A stretch of 64,000 nt of DNA from Betaproteobacteria bacterium (GCA_027490755.1 JAIXXL010000027.1:1-64000); one strand, 5' to 3'. Positions 44,207 to 56,681 are shown, counted from the first letter of the stretch. Notes: generated by a model from the letters alone, not told the origin. Numbers and translations: made by a program.

Positions 44207-44338
44207 GGGCGTCTCGGCGGTGACTTGCGGTATTGGGTCAAGTCTACACCGAGGAAACACGCTCCACATCCGGTTAGCCGCTCGGCAGTACGCCGCTTGC
44301 AAGATGCCCACCTGTGGCATACCTTGGACCCTGTCACC

Positions 44339-46365
<2,027 letters not shown>

Positions 46366-46392
46366 CTTTCGCCCTTGGCAGGAGCCAACGTC

Positions 46393-46509
46393 TCAAGTTT
46401 CAACTGGCCCGAAAATCCCGGGGCAGGTCAAGAGCTTGATGGCTGAGGTGTCGGGAAGGGCCTCCCAGAGGGAGCCGTAAAAAGCGATCGGGGGCGGATT
46501 CAGGTCCAT
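46393..46509 (-). CDS. Possible 38-residue protein, unrecognised
   Basis: A short frame begins MDLNPPPIAFYGSLWEALPD and ends ...CPGIFGPVET. An AGG in CGAGG lies 6 nt before the ATG. It is about 100 nt beyond the last gene of the exported-protein operon and is separated from it by hairpins, so it could be a ninth gene, a separate small gene or a fragment. No family is recognised, and coding status rests only on the ribosome site and sensible codons. Confidence 0.3.
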   Translation of the reverse strand: MDLNPPPIAFYGSLWEALPDTSAIKLLTCPGIFGPVET

Positions 46510-46551
46510 GCGGGTCCTCGATGGGAAGGAGCCGCCGAATATACGGATGAG

Positions 46552-46595
46552 CTGGCTCAGGGCGTGAGCCAGTACATGGCGCGAAAGTTGTACTG
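46552..46595. terminator. Paired hairpins at the 3' end of the exported-protein operon
   Basis: An 8-bp perfect stem (CTGGCTCA-N5-TGAGCCAG, 46552-46572) overlaps the arm of a second inverted repeat (CAGTACA-N12-TGTACTG, 46570-46595). Both lie 16-60 nt beyond the stop of the last operon gene. No T-run follows on the minus strand, so intrinsic termination is doubtful. Mutually exclusive folding or an mRNA-end structure is possible. Confidence 0.4.
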
Positions 46596-46610
46596 TCGCC
46601 TAACCGATGC

Positions 46611-47159
46611 TCAAGGACGCGAGGGCTGGGCATTGCGCCCCGTCGGCCCCATTGCCTTTTCACGGATCTCCGCCACGCATTGCCCGGCGAACTCTGCCGC
46701 CCTCGTAAGCAACTCAGGCTCGGGGTTCTGACGCGCGTCAGGAGCCACCATGGCCGACTTGTTGCAGAGAACCGCCTTTGCATTGATGGCGACCGCGCCC
46801 CCGGGCAAATGGACCTTCACGGGGCGATGCACGAGCAGGTTGATGCTTGCGATGCATCCGCCCGTCAGCGCGGAAGATGGCATTCGCAGGGCATTCACCG
46901 TCACATATACGGCCACATCTTCACCTTGGTGCGGCGCCGTAATCGTTACGTTTTGACCGGCGAGCCGCTTCTGGACAGCTTCGACGAACCGGCTGGACCG
47001 TATCTGGCATTCGACATGGTGATCATGATCGATCTCGGTGTACACGAATGCCCTTTGAATAACGCCCGTCGACGATGAGGCATCCGCCGCCTGAGCAACG
47101 CCATCTGCAAGCGCCAATCCCAGCGCTAAAAAGCGAAGGCAGGACAGCAAGCCTTTCAA
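46611..47159 (-). CDS. Exported protein of unknown function (operon gene 8)
   Basis: A protein of 182 aa with a Sec signal cleaved after GVAQA (residue 23 or so). The mature part has several Cys residues (HHVECQI, GGCIAS, AVLCNKS, GQCVAE) and beta-rich segments such as VAVYVTVNALR. I recognise no domain. Its start overlaps the stop of the preceding operon gene by 4 nt, so it is translationally coupled to the LPP20/FlgT-N-like gene. Confidence 0.7.
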   Translation of the reverse strand: MKGLLSCLRFLALGLALADGVAQAADASSSTGVIQRAFVYTEIDHDHHVECQIRSSRFVEAVQKRLAGQNVTITAPHQGEDVAVYVTVNALRMPSSALTGGCIASINLLVHRPVKVHLPGGAVAINAKAVLCNKSAMVAPDARQNPEPELLTRAAEFAGQCVAEIREKAMGPTGRNAQPSRP

Positions 47160-48337
47160 AGATTGCCTGCGGAGCGGAGTTGTTGCACCACCGTGTCCCC
47201 CGCGAAGCGCGCGGCTTCGTCAAGGGCGTTACGGTAGGCGTCCTCGATATTCGAAGCCCGTCCACGAATGTGCTTCTGGTTGGACCCGATAACAGCAGGG
47301 CCAAAGCCTTTGCGTTTGAGGTCGTAGATCTGGACCACCAGATTTGCGGTGACAACATCGAAACCAGTGGTCGCATCCTTGTCGTAGGCATCAACCGTCA
47401 GCGACGCCCACACAAAGTAGGCTCGTCCATCCAACTGCGCAGCACACGCGCGAAGGTTGCCAAGCAGCGCTCCCGAAAGATCTGACGGCATCTCGCCTGA
47501 GGGTGAGTTTGCGTAGACATCCGAGAAGGAGTCAGGCTTGGGTAGGTTGCATTGCGCCACGGCAGCAACATATGGCGTTGCGGTGAGCTTGGCGTTCACC
47601 AGTTGATTTCCAAGTGCGCCGCTCAGGTTGCTGGCATCCCCGACCTTGTAAACCGTCTTCTCGTCCTTTAACGACTGCCTCGAAGAGCTTGTCGCATTCG
47701 CTTCTGTCGTGGCTCTCTGCTGAACCAACTTGGCTTCCTCGCGACTCTGCGCTGATCCACTCGCTCCATCCTTTATGGAGTCTTTGACTGACTCGGCGGT
47801 CTTCCCGCCCACCTGGCTCTTTATGTCAGTCTTGGCTGCGATGCTGACCTCCGGCCCTTCCCGATCGATGGTGGCGGCGCGTCGCGACAACCCCAGATAA
47901 AGCACGCTGACATCGCCCCCCGCAGCCACTTGGGCACCAGCTCCCGCCCCACCACCCCTCAGCAGGTCCGCGACGACCGGCTCGGACACGTTTGCCTTGA
48001 TGCTGATGACGTAACGCTTCTCCTTCTCCCTGAAGGCCTCGTCCACGACGGTCACATTGACGACGATGTCATCCAGCGCATCGAGAAACTGCTTCTCCTT
48101 GGCGCGGATATTCGTCACCTTGGCCTGATCCTGTTTCTGCAGCCAATTCCTCCAGACATTGGTCTTTGCCGCCTTCATGGCGGCAGCCTTCTGTTCCGTA
48201 CTCGGCTTCCCCGACCAGAAGCCGCCTGCATCGACGGCGCCCTCGCCGCGGTAGAACTCAGCGGCGAAAGCTCCGGCAGAGGCCATCAAACATAGCGCGC
48301 AGGCAAGCGCCAAAAAGGCTTTCAAGGTCTTGTTCAT
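47156..48337 (-). CDS. Exported protein with LPP20/FlgT-N-like region (operon gene 7)
   Basis: A protein of 393 aa with a Sec signal (LACALCLMASAGAFAA). The early mature part (YRGEGAVDAGGFW, then an Ala/Lys helix and VVNVTVVDEAFREKEKRYVISIKANV) looks like the short alpha/beta domain of LPP20 or FlgT-N proteins. A central stretch rich in Ser/Gln/Lys (about 190-240) is probably disordered. The C-terminal region (AYFVWASLTVDAYDK, TANLVVQIYDL, ending in an Ala-rich helix) resembles a CsgG-type subdomain, by eye only. It overlaps its neighbours by 4 nt on both sides. Confidence 0.65.
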   Translation of the reverse strand: MNKTLKAFLALACALCLMASAGAFAAEFYRGEGAVDAGGFWSGKPSTEQKAAAMKAAKTNVWRNWLQKQDQAKVTNIRAKEKQFLDALDDIVVNVTVVDEAFREKEKRYVISIKANVSEPVVADLLRGGGAGAGAQVAAGGDVSVLYLGLSRRAATIDREGPEVSIAAKTDIKSQVGGKTAESVKDSIKDGASGSAQSREEAKLVQQRATTEANATSSSRQSLKDEKTVYKVGDASNLSGALGNQLVNAKLTATPYVAAVAQCNLPKPDSFSDVYANSPSGEMPSDLSGALLGNLRACAAQLDGRAYFVWASLTVDAYDKDATTGFDVVTANLVVQIYDLKRKGFGPAVIGSNQKHIRGRASNIEDAYRNALDEAARFAGDTVVQQLRSAGNL

Positions 48338-49596
48338 CGGACTTTCTCCGCTTTTGCTAGAACAGTGGCAAGGGCAGGACTCTTAGAAAGGGGCAACTTG
48401 GCCCCAACGTCGCGCGCGCCGATGCCATCCAGCATCGTTGCGTCCTTGTTAAGCATCCCGGCAAACAACTGGTCGATTACGCCCGTGAAGATCAGGTCGA
48501 AACGCTCGAGGTGGCGCTCCGGAACGACCGACTTCTCGTCAGCCGAAATGTCTTTGTCCTCGTCAAAACAAGCGCACTTCAAGAGGACCTGATCGTTGTG
48601 ATCTTTGAAGACAACACCGATGGTGAGCGACCTGGTCACGTCATGCCACCCCTGCTGCTGGTTACGCCAAGACTTCACCGTGGCACCGATCAAGACCACC
48701 TCGACCCTGAAATCAATGGCATCCCCCTCGGGTAGCCGGATGTTCTGAATGGCTGCCGAATCCGAGAAGCGAAGGGTGAAGTCAGCCAGCGCCCTGGTCT
48801 CCCTGAACGGGACCACCGGAATGGCCAGACCCCTGCAGAGCGCGGCGCTCGCAGCAAGGCCAAGGCTCTGTTCGGTAAAACGGTCGGCTATCCCGGTCTG
48901 CGCAAACACGGTGGCGACCTCTGGCCTTATCTCTACCTTGCTGACCTTGGCGAAGATGTTCCCGAAACCCTCGCGCCAACGACCGAAACGGCCGGTCAGA
49001 TCGACGAAGGTGCTACGGAAAGAATTGCTCGCCCCGGAAAGAACGTCGGGATACGCGGCCTGAACGGCCTTTAGCAGGCCTTCCGAACCATAGCTGCCCG
49101 TTCGCTTGATGTAGAAAGGGAATGAGGAGAGAAGTCTCCAGCCACCATCGTCGAATCCCAGAACAACTCCCTGTCCGGCAAGACGCATGAAGAAGAAATT
49201 CTCGCGGAGCCCCTTCACGCTAATCTGCGGAAAATTTACGACATTCTCGTAATCAAGCATCGCTGCAAGCTGAGAAGAGCCTTTGTTCGCGTTCTTGGCC
49301 GGATCGACTTCCACGAGATCTGAGACCTTCGCCCGAAGGTCGCCATCGATAGCCTGCGTGACCCACAAGTAGGGTGTTGAACCGCTTTGCAGGGTTTGCG
49401 GCAATTTGCTGATGTGAGCGAACCGGACCGGAATCTCCCCTGCCCCCGCCCCGATCCCGAAGCCAAGCCAAAGTGGCTTGGTGAGCGGCCGGGTGCGCTC
49501 ACCGGAAGCGCTCCGTCCAGACCAAACGAGCCCCGGGCGAAGGCCTATCACGGCCCCCACTCCCATGCGGGCGAGGAAATCGCGACGTGCCAGCAT
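48334..49596 (-). CDS. Tat-type exported protein of unknown function (operon gene 6)
   Basis: Starting at ATG 49596 the protein is 420 aa and begins LARRDFLARMGVGAVIGL, a twin-arginine-like signal (RRDFL), while its operon neighbours carry Sec signals. The mature domain has no motif I recognise. Repeated aromatic and basic segments (FFFMRLAGQGVVLGFDDGGW, GRFGRWREGFGNIFAKV) and a long beta-rich C-terminal half suggest a folded periplasmic binding or scaffold protein. It ends with a 4-nt overlap into the next gene. Confidence 0.65.
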   Translation of the reverse strand: MLARRDFLARMGVGAVIGLRPGLVWSGRSASGERTRPLTKPLWLGFGIGAGAGEIPVRFAHISKLPQTLQSGSTPYLWVTQAIDGDLRAKVSDLVEVDPAKNANKGSSQLAAMLDYENVVNFPQISVKGLRENFFFMRLAGQGVVLGFDDGGWRLLSSFPFYIKRTGSYGSEGLLKAVQAAYPDVLSGASNSFRSTFVDLTGRFGRWREGFGNIFAKVSKVEIRPEVATVFAQTGIADRFTEQSLGLAASAALCRGLAIPVVPFRETRALADFTLRFSDSAAIQNIRLPEGDAIDFRVEVVLIGATVKSWRNQQQGWHDVTRSLTIGVVFKDHNDQVLLKCACFDEDKDISADEKSVVPERHLERFDLIFTGVIDQLFAGMLNKDATMLDGIGARDVGAKLPLSKSPALATVLAKAEKVR

Positions 49597-49610
49597 CACT
49601 GCTCCCCGAC

Positions 49611-51059
49611 TTAAAAGTTGTCGATCTTGGACGTTGCCGCAGCGGCGGCAGCAGCCTCCGCCTTTGGATCCGGACCAGACAACTTCGCGACCCGGGCAGC
49701 TTGCTCCCAAGACGCATAAACCTTGCAACTGCCATAGAAAGCCTCGTTCACGATCCTGATCGCCGGGAGCATGCCTATGGACCTCTCTATATCCCCCGCG
49801 TAGCTCAGTGCTTCGTTCAAAACCATGCCACGCGCCTGGGTCACCAGAGACACCGCAGCGGCCCGCTTGGCCATTGCATCGTTCAACTGCGCCTTCTGGG
49901 TATCCGAGAGTCTCTCGGCCGCGGCGAGAATCCCTGCCATCTTTCTCTCGGCCTCTGGATCGGGGCTCACCGTGGTCGTGGGGTCGGTCTTTCGTTTCTC
50001 CATCAGTTGTCCAAGGCTGCGGATCTGGGCCCGGGCAGTGACTTGGTCCTGCGAAAGGCCAACAATGGCGTTGCCCTGATCGACGGCATCCGCCGAGAGG
50101 CGGAGAGCCTCATCAAGCAGTCGCCCATAAGGCTTGGAAGGAATCGCCGCCAGGTTCTGCTGCTGATAGGCCTCTGCCGCCAGGAACATCTGCCGACGAC
50201 TCGGATCGTGGTCAACGACAGTTTTTGATCGGGTCTCACGAAAGTTCCAGCGATCCATCTCCGCTTTCTGACCACCCCCTCCAATCAAGGGATTCCCCGC
50301 TGCGGCTTCTGACCGCACGAGCAGCGCCATGGCCATCTGCGGGTTCTTGGGAACACCCTCCCCAACGGCGGCACGGCGGGCGCGATACACGTTGTAGGTG
50401 TAGTGGTCCTGATTGCCGAGACTGTCAAGAAGTTGCTGTCCGCGGCCCGGGGTCTTGGAGGCCTGGGGCATCTGCAGATGAATGAATGCCAACGCGACCT
50501 TAGCGTCATTCTGCGTCTGCTGGTCCTTGCTGCTGGTCGCCTCATCAATGATCAAGGCCAGGGTGGCAGGCTCCGGGTAGGCCACGAAAGATGCGTAAAG
50601 CGCTTGGATACGCCGCGTCTCAAATTCATTGAGATAGAAGTACGCGTTGGGGAACGCGTAACTGACCGTGCGATTCGCTGCGGCGGCATTCTTGAACTGT
50701 GTGAATACCTCCTCCGGGCGCAGGTTGAATTCCTGCTGGACAAGGCCGTCGATGTTCTTCCCCCGCAATTGCTTTTCACCGACGATCACGCCCTCGATCT
50801 CGCACTGCATGCGGTTGAAGTCTTTCGCCTGGCCTTGGCCAGGTGGCCCTGATGGGTTGGCGGCAGCCCCCTTCGCAGTTGGAGACATCGCATTTGCACC
50901 GCCCTCAACAGGCTGCTGGATGGCCTGCTCCAGCTTTTTAAGAAACCCGCCCAGCCCGCCCTTTTGTTTCTTGCCCGCCGCATCTTCTGCGTGCGCCAGC
51001 GAGGATACCGACAGCAGAACTGCGGCGAGAGCCGCTAAACAAGCACTTGGGGCCTTCAT
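49611..51059 (-). CDS. Exported Sel1-like/helical protein (operon gene 5)
   Basis: A protein of 482 aa with a Sec signal (LAALAAVLLSVSSLAHA). A Pro/Gly/Ala-rich linker (residues 30-75) precedes a largely helical domain. The segment VGEGVPKNPQMAMALLVRSEAAAGNP (about 255-280) resembles one Sel1/TPR-like repeat. The C-terminus has coiled, Ala-rich helices and ends in a poly-Ala stretch. Function is unknown; a scaffold role in an envelope complex is a guess. It begins with a 4-nt overlap of the preceding small membrane protein gene. Confidence 0.65.
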   Translation of the reverse strand: MKAPSACLAALAAVLLSVSSLAHAEDAAGKKQKGGLGGFLKKLEQAIQQPVEGGANAMSPTAKGAAANPSGPPGQGQAKDFNRMQCEIEGVIVGEKQLRGKNIDGLVQQEFNLRPEEVFTQFKNAAAANRTVSYAFPNAYFYLNEFETRRIQALYASFVAYPEPATLALIIDEATSSKDQQTQNDAKVALAFIHLQMPQASKTPGRGQQLLDSLGNQDHYTYNVYRARRAAVGEGVPKNPQMAMALLVRSEAAAGNPLIGGGGQKAEMDRWNFRETRSKTVVDHDPSRRQMFLAAEAYQQQNLAAIPSKPYGRLLDEALRLSADAVDQGNAIVGLSQDQVTARAQIRSLGQLMEKRKTDPTTTVSPDPEAERKMAGILAAAERLSDTQKAQLNDAMAKRAAAVSLVTQARGMVLNEALSYAGDIERSIGMLPAIRIVNEAFYGSCKVYASWEQAARVAKLSGPDPKAEAAAAAAATSKIDNF

Positions 51060-51307
51060 TGCTCCATCCGTTTGAGGCGATCTTGGATGGTTTCCGGATG
51101 GCGCTCTGCCGGGGCAGCCTGTTGGTTCGGTTCTGGCGCTTCCGACGCCTTTGCACTGCTTGCGGTGTCTGCGCGAGGAGCCTCTGGCTGCGCCTCAACT
51201 TGCTGCGTCGAATCCGAACGGATCACGCCATCAAGAAATGAGGTGACATCACCCCAGTACCTGAATAGAAGGACGGCCACCACCACGCTCAATACAAAAT
51301 TAAACAT
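51056..51307 (-). CDS. Small single-pass membrane protein (operon gene 4)
   Basis: An 83-aa protein with one N-terminal helix (FNFVLSVVVAVLLFRYW), then an acidic Ala/Pro/Gln-rich stretch and a short basic amphipathic end (IQDRLKRMEQ). The ATG at 51307 is favoured over a longer start at 51334, which would overlap the preceding gene. It could anchor or bridge the exported partners. No family is recognised. Confidence 0.6.
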   Translation of the reverse strand: MFNFVLSVVVAVLLFRYWGDVTSFLDGVIRSDSTQQVEAQPEAPRADTASSAKASEAPEPNQQAAPAERHPETIQDRLKRMEQ

Positions 51308-51320
51308 GCAAGACCCCTTT

Positions 51321-51677
51321 TTAACGACGCCCAAGACTCGCGAATTGCGGATCGATGCTAGCGGTCACGACGCCGAATCCATCGCATTCGTGTACCTCGA
51401 TCTCGGAGCGCTTCAAAACGATCCTCTGCTCACCAGCATCTGGAAACAGCACCTTCGCAAGAAGGCTCTGCGCTCGACTCTCGGCGGAATGGGTTCCATG
51501 TCGCTGGTCCTTGTCAACCCGCATCCACACCATCACCCGACCCGGCTGCTTTTCAAGCAAGTGGGCGCCGGCTGGCTTGGAACTCATCACCGCGCAAGGG
51601 GCTTGTTCCATCGCTGATGAGGCTGGAACGGCCACTGCCAGCACCCCGGCGGACGCCATCCAACGAATGGATTTCAA
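51321..51677 (-). CDS. Small exported protein of unknown function (operon gene 3)
   Basis: A protein of 118 aa with a Sec signal (MASAGVLAVAVPASSA). The mature part has two Cys (APCAV, HECDG) and ends in a short beta-strand region. No domain is recognised. Overlaps gene 2 by 4 nt at its start and is followed 13 nt later by gene 4, so it lies within one transcript. Confidence 0.6.
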   Translation of the reverse strand: MKSIRWMASAGVLAVAVPASSAMEQAPCAVMSSKPAGAHLLEKQPGRVMVWMRVDKDQRHGTHSAESRAQSLLAKVLFPDAGEQRIVLKRSEIEVHECDGFGVVTASIDPQFASLGRR

Positions 51678-52393
51678 AACTCGCCCGTGTTCTGCCGCTC
51701 AAACACCTCTACCGGCGGTTGCGTCGTCGGGGTGCCCGAAGGCGCCTTTGGCGCGGCCGTACCTGCAGCCGGTTTGCCGGTGCCCGCCGGTCTCGGACCC
51801 GCATTGGCAGCGTTGCCAGACTTGATTTGGCCTGCAGCATTCTGGGTAAGACAGGACTGCCCGATGACGGAGTAGGCCGTCTTGCGACCGCCTTTCTCAG
51901 CCACGCCGTCTGCAAGGGTCACTGCTCCCGTAAGGATCTGATTGGCTTCACGCGTAACGAACGTCTGGATCGAAGAAGCAAAGTTGCTGCTCTCCACTCC
52001 GTCGACGGAAGACTCCTCCAGGAGCTCCTTCGAAGCCTCCTTGGACTTGATGCCAACCTCAAGAAACTCGGCCAGTCGCTTGTAAGCCTGATTCTCTGCA
52101 CGGCGCAGAGCCCCCTCGAGCGAAACAGCAGAGTTGGCGATAACAGGCGCCTCCCCTTTGCAGCGAACTGCCAGACAACCCTCGCCACCCTTGCTGGCTA
52201 CCAGTTTGCAGCCGCGTGGATCACCGCCAGCTTTGAACGTGGCTTCGATGACGCCGTCATTCGGCTTGTTCGGCTGATTCCACTCCGAATAGATCTTGTC
52301 CGATATGTCCGGGACCGCTGCCGATTCGGCAAACGAGACGGGTGATGCCAACGTGACGAGCGCAGCAAGCGGCACAGGGATCCACAACTTCAT
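51674..52393 (-). CDS. Exported protein, possible LPP20-related (operon gene 2)
   Basis: A protein of 239 aa with a Sec signal (PLAALVTLASPVSFAES). Four Cys sit in a compact region (GCKLV, GCLAVRC) with another later (GQSCLTQ). A central helical region (SLEGALRRAENQAYKRLAEFL) recalls the Ala-rich helix of LPP20-type proteins, though this is weak. A Pro/Thr/Gly-rich tail (about 195-230) looks disordered. The start overlaps the stop of the FlgT-like gene by 4 nt. Confidence 0.6.
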   Translation of the reverse strand: MKLWIPVPLAALVTLASPVSFAESAAVPDISDKIYSEWNQPNKPNDGVIEATFKAGGDPRGCKLVASKGGEGCLAVRCKGEAPVIANSAVSLEGALRRAENQAYKRLAEFLEVGIKSKEASKELLEESSVDGVESSNFASSIQTFVTREANQILTGAVTLADGVAEKGGRKTAYSVIGQSCLTQNAAGQIKSGNAANAGPRPAGTGKPAAGTAAPKAPSGTPTTQPPVEVFERQNTGEF

Positions 52394-53574
52394 TTGTCAC
52401 CTCCGAGGAAATCGTCAATGTTCTTTTCGACTGCGTTTTGCTGCTGAGCGTCCTCCGCTCGGCGTACCAGGCTCCCGACAGGAGCCTTCAAGGGATCGCC
52501 AGTGTCGATTCTCACCACAGATACAAGGGGGGCCGTTCTTACGACCTTGCCACTACCCACCGGCACTTCCAACTGGCCACGTTTTTCGCCGGTGTTGGGG
52601 TCTTTGAGCGAACCGCCAAGTGCAAAGACCTGAACAGCTTCCCCCACGCCGAACCGGCTCTCGCCGGCGTCGATGGTCAGTTCTTGGCCCGCCACGCCGA
52701 TCACGGAGGCAGGAAAGCCGTAATCGACCATCGTCGAGGCCATCATCACGCCAAGACGTCGTGCACTAGCACCGAGGTCGTTTTTCGAGTTCCCGAGCAG
52801 AGCGAGACTCGAGGTCTTCGAATAGCGAACCTGCCCGGTCGAATAGTCGAGCAGGGTGATGTTTCCGGCGATACGGCCTGATGCCCCTGACGCCCTGTTG
52901 GCCCCAACAAGCACCAAGAAATCTGCAGCCGGTGCAACACCGACGCGCGCCATCTCCTCGACTGGTGTCAGTCCCTCGCGAATGCGCGCAAACTCGCGCT
53001 CCGAAGCCTCCGTCTGGCGCCGGTCAAGAACTGCGAACTTGCGAGTGCCTACAAGAAACTCTTCGACAGCCGCCCGGGTTGGGACGGTCAAGGCCGGGTC
53101 GCCGTCCGCGCCTTGAGCCACGGCGACTCGCATCCTGGCCAATTGCGCGCTTTTTTTCAGGACAGGCACTTGAACGTCAAGTACTGCCTTGACCAGACCG
53201 CTCGACCGGTCTGCGCCCATCGAGACAACTGAGTAGGCTTTTATCGCGCCCTTGGTCCGAGATTCGATCTGGTCGATCACCGTGGCCTTGAAGTTGCTCA
53301 CCGCCTGGTTGCCAGACGCGGACTCGTCAAGACGCTCACTCGTTGAGAGCACCGACTTCACGTGTACCCCGTTGACTTGGCCAACTGCCCTGGCAAGTGC
53401 GTTGTCGGTGGCTTTGACCTCCGATTGCCCGACGCCAATCGAGCGAACCGTGACGAAGGAGATTCCTTCAGAGGATGCCTGCGGGCTCAGCAGAAAAAGA
53501 TTGGTCGCGATGAGGAGACGCGCAAACCATGTGCCTGCGAAAAACAAGATTCCCTGTACATGTAGGCGAGACAT
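52390..53574 (-). CDS. CsgG/FlgT-like three-domain envelope protein (operon gene 1)
   Basis: A protein of 394 aa with an N-terminal hydrophobic signal (LLIATNLFLLSPQAS). Three regions follow the order seen in FlgT: an N-domain (IGVGQS...NALARAVGQVNGVHV, about 40-140), a CsgG/FlgT-M-like middle domain (EEFLVGTRKFAVLDRRQ, ADFLVLVGANR, about 150-295), and an SH3-like C-domain (LTIDAGESRFGVGEAVQVF, DPNTGEKRG, about 300-370). CsgG-type proteins build outer-membrane rings or pores, and FlgT decorates the flagellar basal body. No flagellar or curli genes are nearby, so this is probably a separate system. It is the first gene of the operon. Confidence 0.72.
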   Translation of the reverse strand: MSRLHVQGILFFAGTWFARLLIATNLFLLSPQASSEGISFVTVRSIGVGQSEVKATDNALARAVGQVNGVHVKSVLSTSERLDESASGNQAVSNFKATVIDQIESRTKGAIKAYSVVSMGADRSSGLVKAVLDVQVPVLKKSAQLARMRVAVAQGADGDPALTVPTRAAVEEFLVGTRKFAVLDRRQTEASEREFARIREGLTPVEEMARVGVAPAADFLVLVGANRASGASGRIAGNITLLDYSTGQVRYSKTSSLALLGNSKNDLGASARRLGVMMASTMVDYGFPASVIGVAGQELTIDAGESRFGVGEAVQVFALGGSLKDPNTGEKRGQLEVPVGSGKVVRTAPLVSVVRIDTGDPLKAPVGSLVRRAEDAQQQNAVEKNIDDFLGGDK

Positions 53575-53691
53575 GTCCGGCCCTTACGGAGGTTGCGAGT
53601 GTCCTGATTTCGAAACGGGCTGCAGGGGACCATAGCATACTCAGCAATCCAGCATGCCCGGGGGCAGCCAGGCTTTCGCGCACAGAGAGTT

Positions 53692-54203
53692 TTGTTCAAA
53701 AAGAATTTTTTAGTCCGGCAGATCAAGGCCATCGGCCAGAACGCGGCGCTGCTCGGCGACACAGACGACCTCGAGTCCTTCCTGTTCGAGACGCCGCGCC
53801 AGGCGTTGGTGGCTATCAGTGCGAACCTGCGCCGTGTGGTCGACAGCCGCTGCTTCTACTGCGGCGGACACGTGCACGAGGCCGATGTCGACCATTTCGT
53901 GCCCTTCTCGCTGTACCCGCGTGACCTCATCCACAACTTTGTCTTCGCTCACACCACGTGCAACAGGAGCAAGTCAGACACGCTCGCAGCGCTAATGCAT
54001 GTGGAGAACTGGCGCGCGTACATCGACCGCCACGACGATGATCTGCGCAAGATCGCACTCACTGTCGGCCGGCCAGCGGACCTGACCGGCAGTCTGGCGG
54101 CGCGCGTTGGGGGTACGGCAACGCGCTGAGTGGCGGTGCGCAGGCGTGGCTGCGCTCGGCCCAGTACACCCCGGTGACGCGGGAGTACCTGGCGGCGCTG
54201 TGA
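53692..54203 (+). pseudogene. HNH endonuclease remnant, 5'-truncated and frameshifted
   Basis: The frame encodes only the C-terminal half of a predicted HNH endonuclease. The zinc/HNH core is CFYCGGHVHEADVDHFVPF...HNFVFAH..CNRSKSDT (about residues 54-97). Homologues carry a longer N-terminal half, which is missing here; the sequence breaks off where the exported-protein operon begins. After SLAARV the frame runs into TGA at 54129, but the +1 frame continues RWGYGNALSGGAQAWLRS...REYLAAL to a stop at 54203, matching the normal C-terminus. A single-base change in a GC run near 54105 explains this. Confidence 0.82.
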
Positions 54204-54229
54204 GTGGTTTAGGCGGTTTGGGCGATGCG
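54152..54229. repeat. Direct repeat, left copy (3' end of the HNH gene)
   Basis: This stretch, GCGCTCGGCCCAGTACACCC onward through CTGGCGGCGCTG and on to GGCGATGCG, recurs in slightly degenerate form at 54836-54904. The two copies bracket brnT-brnA. Confidence 0.75.
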
Positions 54230-54254
54230 GGACGAGGGCTTGTTAGCCGAATAT

Positions 54255-54273
54255 GGGGTCAGTACGAGACCCC
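54255..54273. promoter_or_regulatory. Palindrome before brnT, possible BrnA operator
   Basis: GGGGTC-N7-GACCCC, 28 nt before the brnT start, with further symmetry outside (ATAT...ATAT). BrnA antitoxins bind DNA through a ribbon-helix-helix domain and repress their own promoter, so this is a natural candidate site. Confidence 0.5.
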
Positions 54274-54300
54274 TTGTCCATATTTCCCGTAACCACAATA

Positions 54301-54585
54301 ATGGCCTTTGCAATCGAGTTCGATCAGTCCAAGCGGCTGACCACCCTGCTCGAGCGCGGTCTGGATTTTGCGCGGGCGGCAGAAGCCTTCTCGGGGCGTC
54401 ATTTCACCGATCAGGATGAGCGCCGCGACTACTCCGAGCCCCGGTTCATCACCATCGGGACTCTGGACGGATTCGCCGTGGTGATGGTCTGGACGCCCCG
54501 CGGCGGTGCCCGCCGCATCATCAGCATGAGGAAGGCAAATGAGCGAGAACGAGAGCGTTACCGGGCGGCCCTGGGTCGACCCTGA
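54301..54585 (+). CDS. brnT: BrnT family ribonuclease toxin
   Basis: RelE-fold toxin of 94 aa. The BrnT pattern is clear: FDQSKRL near the start, ALxLGERGLDF-like LLERGLDF, then ERRDYSEPRFITIGTLDG and RRIISMRKANERERERY at the end. The ATG at 54301 is used; an upstream GTG lies in the leader. It overlaps brnA by 47 nt. It is predicted to cleave RNA and arrest growth unless bound by BrnA. Confidence 0.9.
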   Translation: MAFAIEFDQSKRLTTLLERGLDFARAAEAFSGRHFTDQDERRDYSEPRFITIGTLDGFAVVMVWTPRGGARRIISMRKANERERERYRAALGRP

Positions 54586-54811
54586 CGATGCGCCCGAGCT
54601 CACTGAGGAGTTCTTTGAGCGGGCCGACGAATACAACGGTGAACGGGTCGTCCGGCGAGGCAGACGGCCGGCCGCAGTGACCAAGGTCGCGGTCACCGTG
54701 CGCTACGACGCCGATGTGATCGCCGCCTTCCGTGCCATGGGGAAGGGCTGGCAGACGCAGATGAACGATGCGCTGAGGGAGTGGCTAGCGAAACGGGAAG
54801 AGCGCCGGTAG
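54539..54811 (+). CDS. brnA: BrnA family antitoxin (ribbon-helix-helix)
   Basis: Antitoxin of 90 aa. The N-terminal half (PELTEEFFERADEY) wraps the toxin, and the C-terminal half (KVAVTVRYDADVIAAFRA...WQTQMNDALREWL) is a typical BrnA DNA-binding domain. Toxin-first order and long overlap match the family. Confidence 0.9.
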   Translation: MSENESVTGRPWVDPDDAPELTEEFFERADEYNGERVVRRGRRPAAVTKVAVTVRYDADVIAAFRAMGKGWQTQMNDALREWLAKREERR

Positions 54812-54835
54812 CGGTATCGATCGGTCATCCTAGTC

Positions 54836-54904
54836 GCGCTCAGCCCAGTACACCCTTACGACGCCGGAGTACCTGGCGGCGCTGTAGGTGGTTCAGCCGA
54901 TGCG
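54836..54904. repeat. Direct repeat, right copy (HNH 3' end)
   Basis: Degenerate second copy of 54152-54229: CCCAGTACACCC, GGAGTACCTGGCGGCGCTGT and GCCGATGCG are shared in order. It has no coding context of its own, and the 167 bp that follow, up to the XRE stop, hold nothing I recognise. Confidence 0.75.
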
Positions 54905-55071
54905 CCATCGCTGTCTCTGGTAGACCATCCGGGCGCCCTTGTCTTTTCCTCGCCCGAGAGACGCAGCCTGTCCAGGCAACTATGCCGCACCTCACCAAGA
55001 CCGCCATGGCCCAGCGGATGCGCCCCAGCCGCGCCCAGCCGCGTAACGGCTGCTTGCCCGAGCGAATCGCC

Positions 55072-55722
55072 TCAAACCACAAGAACCTCCAACCCTACAT
55101 CCAGCGCCTTCGCCAGTCGGGCCAGGGTGGCGGCGGACCCTGTGCGCTTGCCATGCTCGATCTGGCTGACATAAGGCTTGCTCACGCCAGCCGCGTCAGC
55201 GAGTGCCTGGAGGGTCATGCCACGTAACTCTCGCCAGGCTCTCAGCGGGGTTGCGCCTTCAACGATCGCGTAAACCACAGCCGACGGAAACCTCGCACCA
55301 TCATCCTCAGCCTTGGCCCGGTCGTAGGCCGCGACATCCTGGGCATCTTCCACGGCATCGCGCACCCGCCCCCAAAGGGAAGCAGGCAGCACGTAGAAAG
55401 CGGGCTTGCCATCCTCTTCGATCACCCGGATCTGTTCGATCGCCACGATATCGCTCATCTGTAAATACCCCCTCGAAACACCCCCTCGCGAGCCGATCTG
55501 CAGCACACGTACCAAAACACGCCCGGCATCGATAACGAAGATCACGCGCCAATCCCCCACACGCAGCCTGTAGCCCGGACGACCCACCAACGCCTTCACG
55601 TTTTGTGACTCGGCAGGTGCCAGCGCCATCTCATCGATCTTGGCCCGAATCAACTCGCGCGCCGGCCGCGGCAACCGGATAAGGGCCCTCAAGGCATCGC
55701 GGGAGTATTCAACAGAGTACAA
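55072..55722 (-). CDS. RelE-type toxin fused in frame to its XRE antitoxin
   Basis: A 216-aa frame from a TTG at 55722. Residues 1-88 are a RelE/ParE-superfamily toxin (YSVEYSRDALRALIRLP, GYRLRVGDWRVIFVID, LVRVLQIGSRGG). Residues 89-216, starting at the internal ATG 55458, are a complete antitoxin with an XRE helix-turn-helix (MTLQALADAAGVSKPYVSQIE, about 168-188). These are normally two overlapping genes. A 13-bp tandem duplication at the junction removes the toxin stop and joins the frames. The antitoxin could still be made alone, since GAGGGGG precedes its ATG. Whether the fused toxin is active is unknown. Confidence 0.88.
   Translation of the reverse strand: MYSVEYSRDALRALIRLPRPARELIRAKIDEMALAPAESQNVKALVGRPGYRLRVGDWRVIFVIDAGRVLVRVLQIGSRGGVSRGYLQMSDIVAIEQIRVIEEDGKPAFYVLPASLWGRVRDAVEDAQDVAAYDRAKAEDDGARFPSAVVYAIVEGATPLRAWRELRGMTLQALADAAGVSKPYVSQIEHGKRTGSAATLARLAKALDVGLEVLVV
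55463..55488. repeat. 13-bp tandem duplication at the toxin-antitoxin junction
   Basis: On the minus strand the two units are CGAGGGGGTGTTT and CGAGGGGGTATTT, back to back, with one mismatch. Removing one unit gives a toxin ending ...GSRGGIYR with TGA overlapping the antitoxin ATG, the standard arrangement. Confidence 0.9.
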
Positions 55723-55729
55723 ACTCGCA

Positions 55730-55760
55730 CCCGAATGTTAGCTAATAGTTAACTCTCGGG
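55730..55760. promoter_or_regulatory. Extended palindrome upstream of the RelE-XRE locus, likely autoregulatory operator
   Basis: Arms CCCGAATGTTAGCTA and TAGTTAACTCTCGGG (12 of 15 symmetric) around one central base, 8 nt before the toxin start. XRE antitoxins usually bind such a site to repress their own operon. Confidence 0.65.
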
Positions 55761-55904
55761 CAACGTGCACTCGGGCCCAATCAGGCCGCGGCCCTCTGCC
55801 AAAGTCTGGTTCGTGAAGGGCGCAAGCGGAATCCGGCAGATGGCCGAAATCGCGACAGCCGGCGCTTTTTGCGGCATGGCGCCGCGCCCTCCGGTGACGG
55901 ATCA

Positions 55905-55972
55905 CCTGGAGGCAACCCGAGCATTGCCTCCGGGATCAGGAGCAGAATCGAGGGCGGGACCCTCGGTGGAGG
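55905..55972 (+). promoter_or_regulatory. Structured leader of the small Cys-rich gene
   Basis: Two hairpins precede the ribosome site: GGAGGCAA-N8-TTGCCTCC (55908-55931, extendable to about 11 pairs) and CGAGGG-N5-CCCTCG (55949-55954/55960-55965). The second ends on the first base of the GGTGGAGG Shine-Dalgarno (55965-55972). The rest of the 218-bp gap back to the TA operator shows nothing else clear. No known riboswitch class was recognised. Confidence 0.5.
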
Positions 55973-55978
55973 TTTTGC

Positions 55979-56221
55979 GTGGACATCACAAAATCACTCG
56001 CCACCGCCGTCGGAGCCTTGACTGGCCTTATCGCCTCCGCCGCCATCGCCGCCCCACCCGCCGCACCGCTGGCCAAGGACGGCTCGTGCCCGACCGGCTA
56101 CTACTCGAGCGGCAACTACTGCCTCGCCAGCTCGGACAGCAACCGGCTGGCCATCCCCAAACGTGGCTCCTGCCCCTCGGGGTACTACAGCAGCGGCAAT
56201 TACTGCGTGAGCAGTCGTTAG
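55979..56221 (+). CDS. Small secreted protein with duplicated CPxGYYSSGNYC motif
   Basis: An 80-aa protein starting at GTG 55979, after a strong GGTGGAGG. A Sec signal (AVGALTGLIASAAIAA) is followed by two near-identical units, GSCPTGYYSSGNYC and GSCPSGYYSSGNYC, each with two Cys that could form a small disulfide loop. Function is not known. The next gene starts 19 nt later, so the two may be co-transcribed. Confidence 0.75.
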   Translation: MDITKSLATAVGALTGLIASAAIAAPPAAPLAKDGSCPTGYYSSGNYCLASSDSNRLAIPKRGSCPSGYYSSGNYCVSSR

Positions 56222-56240
56222 CCAAGAGGAGACTGCCCAG

Positions 56241-56681
56241 ATGATCCGTGCCGCCTTGCAATGCTTGCTGGTCCTACTTCTGACCGCGACCAGTCTCCAA
56301 GTAGCCGCCGCCGACCCGGCAGCTGACACTCACGCCGCCGAGACCCTGGTCCGCGACCAGATCGCCGCCTTCTCGGCCGACGATGGCGAGCGCGCCTTCT
56401 CCTTCGCCGCGCCCGAGGTGCAGCAGAAGTTCGGCGACGCCGGCCGCTTCATGCAGATGGTCCGCAAGTCCTATCCGGCCGTATACCGGCCCATCTCGCT
56501 GCGCTTCCAGCCAGCCAGCTTCCCCGAGGGCGAGAGCGGCGACGTGATGCTGCAGGGCGTCGAGGTGACGGACGCCGGTGGCGGCTACTGGATGGCCACC
56601 TATCAGATCGAGCGGCAGCCCGGTGGCGAGTGGCGTATCGCCGGCTGCGCGCTGCGGCGCCTGGTCGGCAAAGCCACCTAG
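56241..56681 (+). CDS. DUF4864 domain exported protein
   Basis: A 146-aa protein with a Sec signal (LLVLLLTATSLQVAAA). The mature part matches DUF4864: VRDQIAAFSADDGERAFSFAAPEVQQKFGD and a C-terminal WMATYQIERQPGGEWRIAGC. Function is unknown. It converges on lysA with only 13 nt between stops. Confidence 0.85.
   Translation: MIRAALQCLLVLLLTATSLQVAAADPAADTHAAETLVRDQIAAFSADDGERAFSFAAPEVQQKFGDAGRFMQMVRKSYPAVYRPISLRFQPASFPEGESGDVMLQGVEVTDAGGGYWMATYQIERQPGGEWRIAGCALRRLVGKAT

Follow-up and report, generated by a model that had tools for sequence, protein, structure and literature searches.

A stretch of 64,000 nucleotides from Betaproteobacteria bacterium (GCA_027490755.1 JAIXXL010000027.1:1-64000), called the window here, carries eight coupled genes, g1 to g8, most of them for exported proteins. 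Three of these (g1, g6 and g7) have homologues that are encoded together, with a gene for a protein of about 220 amino acids (aa), in an undescribed, conserved and widespread operon of environmental bacteria that spans beta- and gammaproteobacteria. Based on modelled folds, we estimate a probability of about one half that this operon specifies an undescribed stand-alone, horizontally variable ring or scaffold of the periplasm, attached to the outer membrane (OM) on its inner side. The window copy is a divergent and extended form of the operon.

Conservation of the operon

An alignment scan of named genomes recovered 69 loci, 64 of which have the gene order g6-g7-(~220-aa protein)-g1. Of the remaining five, contig ends truncate four, and L110 is broken (comparison loci are labelled L and comparison genomes G). 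The carriers are Herbaspirillum, Comamonadaceae, Pandoraea, Cupriavidus, Chromobacterium and Stenotrophomonas/Xanthomonas. The stop of g6 overlaps the start of g7 in nearly all of these loci, as it does in the window. Neighbouring genes recur from locus to locus almost only within genera, so we consider the operon to be a self-contained unit of four genes. It is located on a chromid in Cupriavidus metallidurans CH34 and, arranged as g1-g2-(g3-position gene)-g6-g7-220aa, on plasmid pSBC2-3 of Caballeronia sp. SBC2. Only 3 of 72,556 plasmid records have it, and it was not found in the phage and viral contig collections. A description of the operon was not found in the open-licence papers to which the literature search was confined.

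The genome of the window (2.06 Mb, 79% complete; the window is contig C12) is of the same order as G133 (Burkholderiales). The g7 profile matches 8 of 399 genomes of the order, and in G064, G066 and G133 relatives of g1 and g7 are near each other on the same strand. In a phylum sample, the same profile matches three genomes of one gammaproteobacterial genus (these match the Stenotrophomonas loci) and gives two weak partial matches. A scan of the genome contigs with the single g1 sequence found no relatives, and the g7 alignment scan did find loci.

The coupling of the genes exceeds chance, because homologous genes adjoin in other genomes. A preliminary description of the window, made from its sequence, had proposed a set of co-occurring envelope genes, and the survey of co-occurrence that it had set as a refuting test bears this out in the 64 of 69 loci. 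It had treated all eight genes as one unit, which does not hold: the core is g6-g7-g1 with the ~220-aa gene, an extended form that includes g2, g4 and g5 is rarer, and no relatives were detected for g3 and g8.

Folds and domains of the core proteins

Structures were modelled for the Delftia orthologues of g6 and g7 and are transferred to the window proteins by homology, at about 19% identity. The model of the g6 orthologue (predicted local distance difference test, pLDDT, 91.8) contains two repeats of the CsgG/LptE/PelC/PqiC domain. Its C-terminal half matches Cj1090c (Z 10.7), PqiC (10.4), PelC (10.0), CsgG (9.8) and FlgT (8.8), and its N-terminal half HpaA (Z 8.2) and TraT (7.0). In the model of the g7 orthologue (pLDDT 74.9; residues 154-217 disordered) the N-domain resembles Tip-alpha/Lpp20 and the C-domain is TolB-N/CsgG-like. 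Based on Foldseek, its best match is FlgT (3w1e, E 9.3e-7), with the LPHT ring at 7.0e-6; based on structure comparison, the Z values are 10.8 for TolB, 10.1 for CsgG, 9.9 for PelC and 9.6 for FlgT.

The g1 orthologues exceed the Pfam cut-off for CsgG and resemble TsaP proteins in their C-terminal region (E 3.3e-5). In the canonical form, a lipobox and a C-terminal tryptophan are each present in 63/64 g1 proteins. The tryptophan comes mostly after acidic residues (EDPNW, DDKW) that are preceded by an Ala/Pro-rich linker (for example, at L053 7958-9412). The window g1 has a sub-threshold match to LPP20 (E 0.0054). Profile links among g1, g6 and g7 obtained with hhalign are weak; their kinship is drawn from the folds of the models. 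Each of the three has a single CsgG/FlgT/PelC/PqiC-superfamily domain or a pair of them.

The FlgT-type domain order assigned to g1 in the preliminary description, and the FlgT-like nature of g7, are supported by the LPP20, CsgG and TsaP matches and by the g7 orthologue model. The LPP20/FlgT-N-like parts that it had assigned to g1 and g7, and tentatively to g2, stand for g7 (orthologue fold) and g1 but not for g2, in which no test gave LPP20 likeness.

The window copy as a divergent, extended form

For the first tests of g1, g6 and g7 we built hidden Markov models (HMMs) of the canonical families without window sequences. The window g1 matches at E 5.7e-26 (4.6e-38 by BLASTP against G064) and g7 at E 2.3e-14 (4.7e-31 against G064). 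The match of g6 is weak (E 7.5e-4); it reaches 2.6e-11 with intermediates added, and the shuffle z against G064 is 19. By these profile matches, homologues of g6, g7 and g1 are encoded jointly in the window operon, and g1 is a divergent orthologue of the OM lipoprotein of the conserved operon.

Relatives of g1, g2, g4, g5, g6 and g7 are within one operon in G064, a single-contig genome. Relatives of g2 adjoin g1 in Caballeronia pSBC2-3 and in G064, where the match has E 6.9e-16 and a shuffle z of 20; 4 of the 399 genomes of the order have a g2 relative. The g4 relative in the G064 operon has a shuffle z of 8.7, part of which reflects composition. The only match of the window g5 is a 443-aa G064 protein (shuffle z 14.6), which itself matches the HMM of the canonical ~220-aa third gene weakly (E 5.8e-4); against a mixed third-gene profile the window g5 gives E 0.59. 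The window g5 may or may not be a replacement of the canonical gene. Trees of g1 and g7 separate the window, together with Caballeronia, G064 and G066, from the canonical sequences; the branches are long and the grouping is suggestive only. Acidic-aromatic ends recur in the extended form, in g2 (GEF, SDDF, ADEF) and in the window g5 (IDNF), and we infer that such an end may be a docking motif. These comparisons mark the window copy as divergent and extended, with g2, the small membrane protein g4 and an enlarged g5 as additions.

In G064, the extended operon is preceded, on its own strand, by genes for an M48/BepA-like protease and an SH3-domain protein (L015 13089-14472).

Flagella, secretins and curli

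The flagellar P-ring protein FlgI was not found in the carriers G064 (single contig), G066 and G257, and the secretin domain PF00263 was not found in G064 and G066, which are complete or near-complete. Curlin repeats (Curlin_rpt) were found in 0/11 carriers tested, with a positive E. coli control. Because there are carriers without FlgI, secretin or curlin repeats, the general role of the operon cannot be to build a flagellar collar or a secretin ring or to export curli. The operon is independent of flagella, secretins and curlin, in agreement with the earlier observation that it has no curlin, flagellin or flagellar gene nearby.

Proposed structure and alternatives

In the proposed structure, g1 (lipidated in the canonical form), g7 and g6 would supply ring-type domains of the CsgG/FlgT/PelC/PqiC superfamily, to which g7 and g1 would add an N-terminal FlgT/Lpp20-like domain, as in flagellar H-ring proteins. 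Two or three rings of g1, g6 and g7, concentric or tiered, would form a collar or conduit that the lipid of g1 would anchor at the OM. The flexible g1 tail, with its acidic-x-Trp end, could dock a partner, and in the window form g2, the membrane protein g4 and the enlarged g5 would join the assembly. That rings form and stack, that the window form is attached to the OM and that the tail docks a partner is what we infer; most likely, the structure would export a surface component or anchor it. A more specific version, in which three different CsgG/FlgT-superfamily proteins form a multi-tier ring in the periplasm as a new machine across the envelope, independent of all known flagellar, pilus, secretin and curli machinery, spread horizontally among beta- and gammaproteobacteria and elaborated in the lineage of the window, is tentative and we consider it possible rather than probable.

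Rings are known in this superfamily. CsgG is a nonamer. At the OM, PelC assembles into a ring of 12 subunits (PMC12141448), the Vibrio H-ring consists of FlgO, FlgP and FlgT (PMC7990780), and TraT is a decamer (PDB titles; PMC11733297). A stacked, OM-associated ring or scaffold is the likeliest reading because three proteins of the superfamily are encoded jointly and one of them is lipidated. Several points weigh against it. The superfamily includes LptE, TolB and LpoB, which do not form rings, and since these have the same fold, the fold is no proof of a ring. Middling Z values are common for the CsgG/PelC-type fold, and the modelled Delftia orthologues share about 19% identity with the proteins of the window. 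The window g1 has neither the lipobox nor the C-terminal tryptophan, and the window does not clearly contain the canonical third gene, which encodes a helical protein of ~220 aa. Of the envelope assembly put forward in the preliminary description, the conserved, co-occurring envelope gene set stands; a ring is read from the fold, and a CsgG-type pore is not borne out in the window g1.

The main alternative, which we consider unlikely, is a non-ring complex for OM maintenance, with the proteins acting as adaptors of the LptE, PqiC, LpoB or TolB kind for lipid, lipopolysaccharide or peptidoglycan machinery. It would explain why LptE-type proteins and PqiC are among the best matches of g6, why the C-domain of g7 is nearest to the TolB N-domain and why, in Azospirillum and G110, g1-like proteins occur with genes for LpoB, YcfL and DUF6844. 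However, the core operon has no lpt, pqi, tol or penicillin-binding protein (PBP) gene, the joint encoding of at least three such domains with a FlgT-like architecture is closer to the H-ring set, and the patchy carriers (see the g7 profile above) are unlike those of housekeeping envelope genes.

Considerably less probable is a CsgG-like secretion channel, in which g1 would form a pore through the OM that is dedicated to one substrate, possibly the ~220-aa product or an unlinked protein. The CsgG match and lipidation of the g1 orthologues are consistent with this reading. Unlike its orthologues, the window g1 has no CsgG match in the Pfam scan; from its sequence, it is without segments matching the CsgG hairpins, and only a short region separates the strands of its middle domain. 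With the hairpin segments and the lipid anchor missing, nothing indicates that this protein forms a CsgG-type pore. In the orthologues the hairpin-matching segment is polar, and against a channel also count the lack of curlin repeats in the tested carriers and of CsgE/F-like genes among the neighbours seen.

Cargo of a mobile element, with a TraT-like exclusion or an adhesion role, is more doubtful still. The low G+C, the variable site with its BrnTA, HNH and ParE-HTH genes, the occurrence on chromids or plasmids and the TraT match of the g6 N-terminal half fit such cargo, but phage and viral contigs gave 0 matches, plasmid records very few, and there are no conjugation genes nearby. The FlgT-like and TsaP-like domains might suggest an accessory ring that serves a flagellum, a type IV pilus or some other secretin machine with genes elsewhere; this reading is already weakened to the point of being highly improbable by the three carriers without FlgI, by the two without secretin and by the fact that the operon never adjoins flagellar, pilus or secretin genes in the loci seen.

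If the proposed ring forms, ring parts of the FlgT/CsgG type can make up a system of their own. This would bear on the origin of flagellar collars and curli-type channels, which would become testable with one small operon. The operon is widespread, no name for it was found, and its genera with cultivable strains include Delftia, Herbaspirillum, Cupriavidus, Chromobacterium and Stenotrophomonas.

Genes of the window and their genomic site

The features of the window are listed in Table 1.

Table 1 Positions and predicted products of the operon genes, and the interval that holds them
Feature	Position	Strand	Description
g1	52390..53574	-	394 aa, exported; FlgT-N/LPP20-like, CsgG/LpoB/TolB_N-type and C-terminal domains
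g2	51674..52393	-	239 aa, exported; conserved cysteines; Pro/Ala-rich tail with acidic-Phe end
g3	51321..51677	-	118 aa, TTG start, exported; no relatives detected
g4	51056..51307	-	~82 aa, ATG start; single-pass membrane protein, Ala/Pro-rich tail
g5	49611..51059	-	482 aa, exported, Ala-rich; C-terminal IDNF
g6	48334..49596	-	~420 aa, Tat-like signal; tandem CsgG/PelC/PqiC/LptE-type domains (orthologue model)
g7	47156..48337	-	393 aa, exported; Tip-alpha/Lpp20-like and TolB-N/CsgG-type domains, FlgT-like (orthologue model)
g8	46611..47159	-	182 aa, TTG start, exported; no relatives detected
Variable interval between thiC and the NTF2-like/lysA side	46362..56338		Holds the operon and HNH, BrnT/BrnA and ParE-HTH genes

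The eight coupled frames run from 53574 to 46611, all on the minus strand, and each has the codon-position G+C of coding sequence (position 2 low). Overlaps of 4 nt occur at five junctions, as ATGA at g1/g2, g4/g5 and g6/g7 and as TTGA at g2/g3 and g7/g8, where the start codon is TTG and not ATG. Given ATG starts at 51307 and 49596, gaps of 13 nt separate g3 from g4 and 14 nt g5 from g6. Read by eye, the N-termini of g1, g2, g3, g5, g7 and g8 are Sec-like, that of g6 has a Tat-like motif (RRDFL) and that of g4 is one single-pass helix. The G+C is 56-60% per gene and 59-61% in the operon region, and mostly 64-74% (about 68-70%) in the rest of the window. The frames, the six Sec-like signals, the one Tat-like signal, the small single-pass protein and the lower G+C had all been described before and are confirmed here; the five overlaps and two gaps also stand, but the overlaps are not all of the ATGA type.

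No product passes the cut-offs of Pfam, NCBIfam or PADLOC, and none of the eight matches the PADLOC anti-phage defence models at E 0.1. The products of g3 and g8 have no Pfam or NCBIfam match, and neither resembles the gene between g2 and g5/g6 in G064 and Caballeronia, so that assignment was rejected. As relatives of DUF6844, g2 (as a short form) and a 562-aa G066 protein were barely above shuffles, not significant, and were dropped. Matches of g6 to the flagellar P-ring (E 0.07) and of g5 to Beclin (E 0.04) were taken as chance.

Contig G001:C52 of a congener has about 2.4 kb of unrelated cargo (HIT-like, HNH-like) between the same two flanks, the thiC end and the NTF2-like/lysA side, and four congeners gave no matches to g1, g2 or g7. 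The simplest reading is lateral gain of the operon at this site, as had been proposed earlier; loss in the congeners instead of gain in the window lineage is also possible. No tRNA was found in the window and no clear repeats at the borders of the island.

Imperfect direct repeats of 64 nt (54152-54215 and 54836-54899, 84% alike) lie on either side of genes for a BrnT toxin and a BrnA antitoxin (54253-54808). A single open frame at 55075-55722 on the minus strand joins a ParE-type toxin domain to an antitoxin-like HTH, possibly a fused toxin-antitoxin. Upstream of thiC is a TPP riboswitch (44336-44431; Rfam, 73.7 bits).

Comparison with known systems

Genes for a g1-type CsgG/FlgT-like protein, DUF6844, YcfL (DUF1425), LpoB and a COG3014-like protein occur together on plasmid p1 of Azospirillum sp. 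TSH100 (L145 4194-9197) and in G110 (L017 8533-14902). As in the operon, a g1-type protein is encoded with envelope genes; unlike the operon, this cluster has no g6 or g7 and has LpoB and YcfL, and the relation of DUF6844 to g2 is not significant. The operon proteins have the same superfamily fold as PqiC, LptE, TraT, LpoB and TolB-N, but those are single-domain or otherwise fused, and their PqiAB, LptD, conjugation, PBP1b and Pal partners are absent from the operon. PelC is similar in fold, with a Z of about 10, to the two halves of g6 and to the C-domain of g7, whereas the operon has no PelB or polysaccharide synthase genes and its domains are fused in tandem or joined to FlgT-N-like domains. 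With CsgG, the g1 orthologues have in common lipidation and a CsgG-type domain that passes the Pfam cut-off. In contrast to CsgG, g1 has extra N- and C-domains, carriers are without curlin repeats and the window g1 is without hairpin segments and lipobox.

From the flagellar H-ring the operon differs in having no flagellar genes nearby, with some carriers without FlgI, and we know of no H-ring counterpart to the tandem-domain g6. The resemblance to FlgT and the H-ring lies in the g7 orthologue, for which FlgT is the best Foldseek match (a likeness of fold only), in the g1 order of N-domain, CsgG-type middle and C-domain, and in the presence of a lipoprotein partner.

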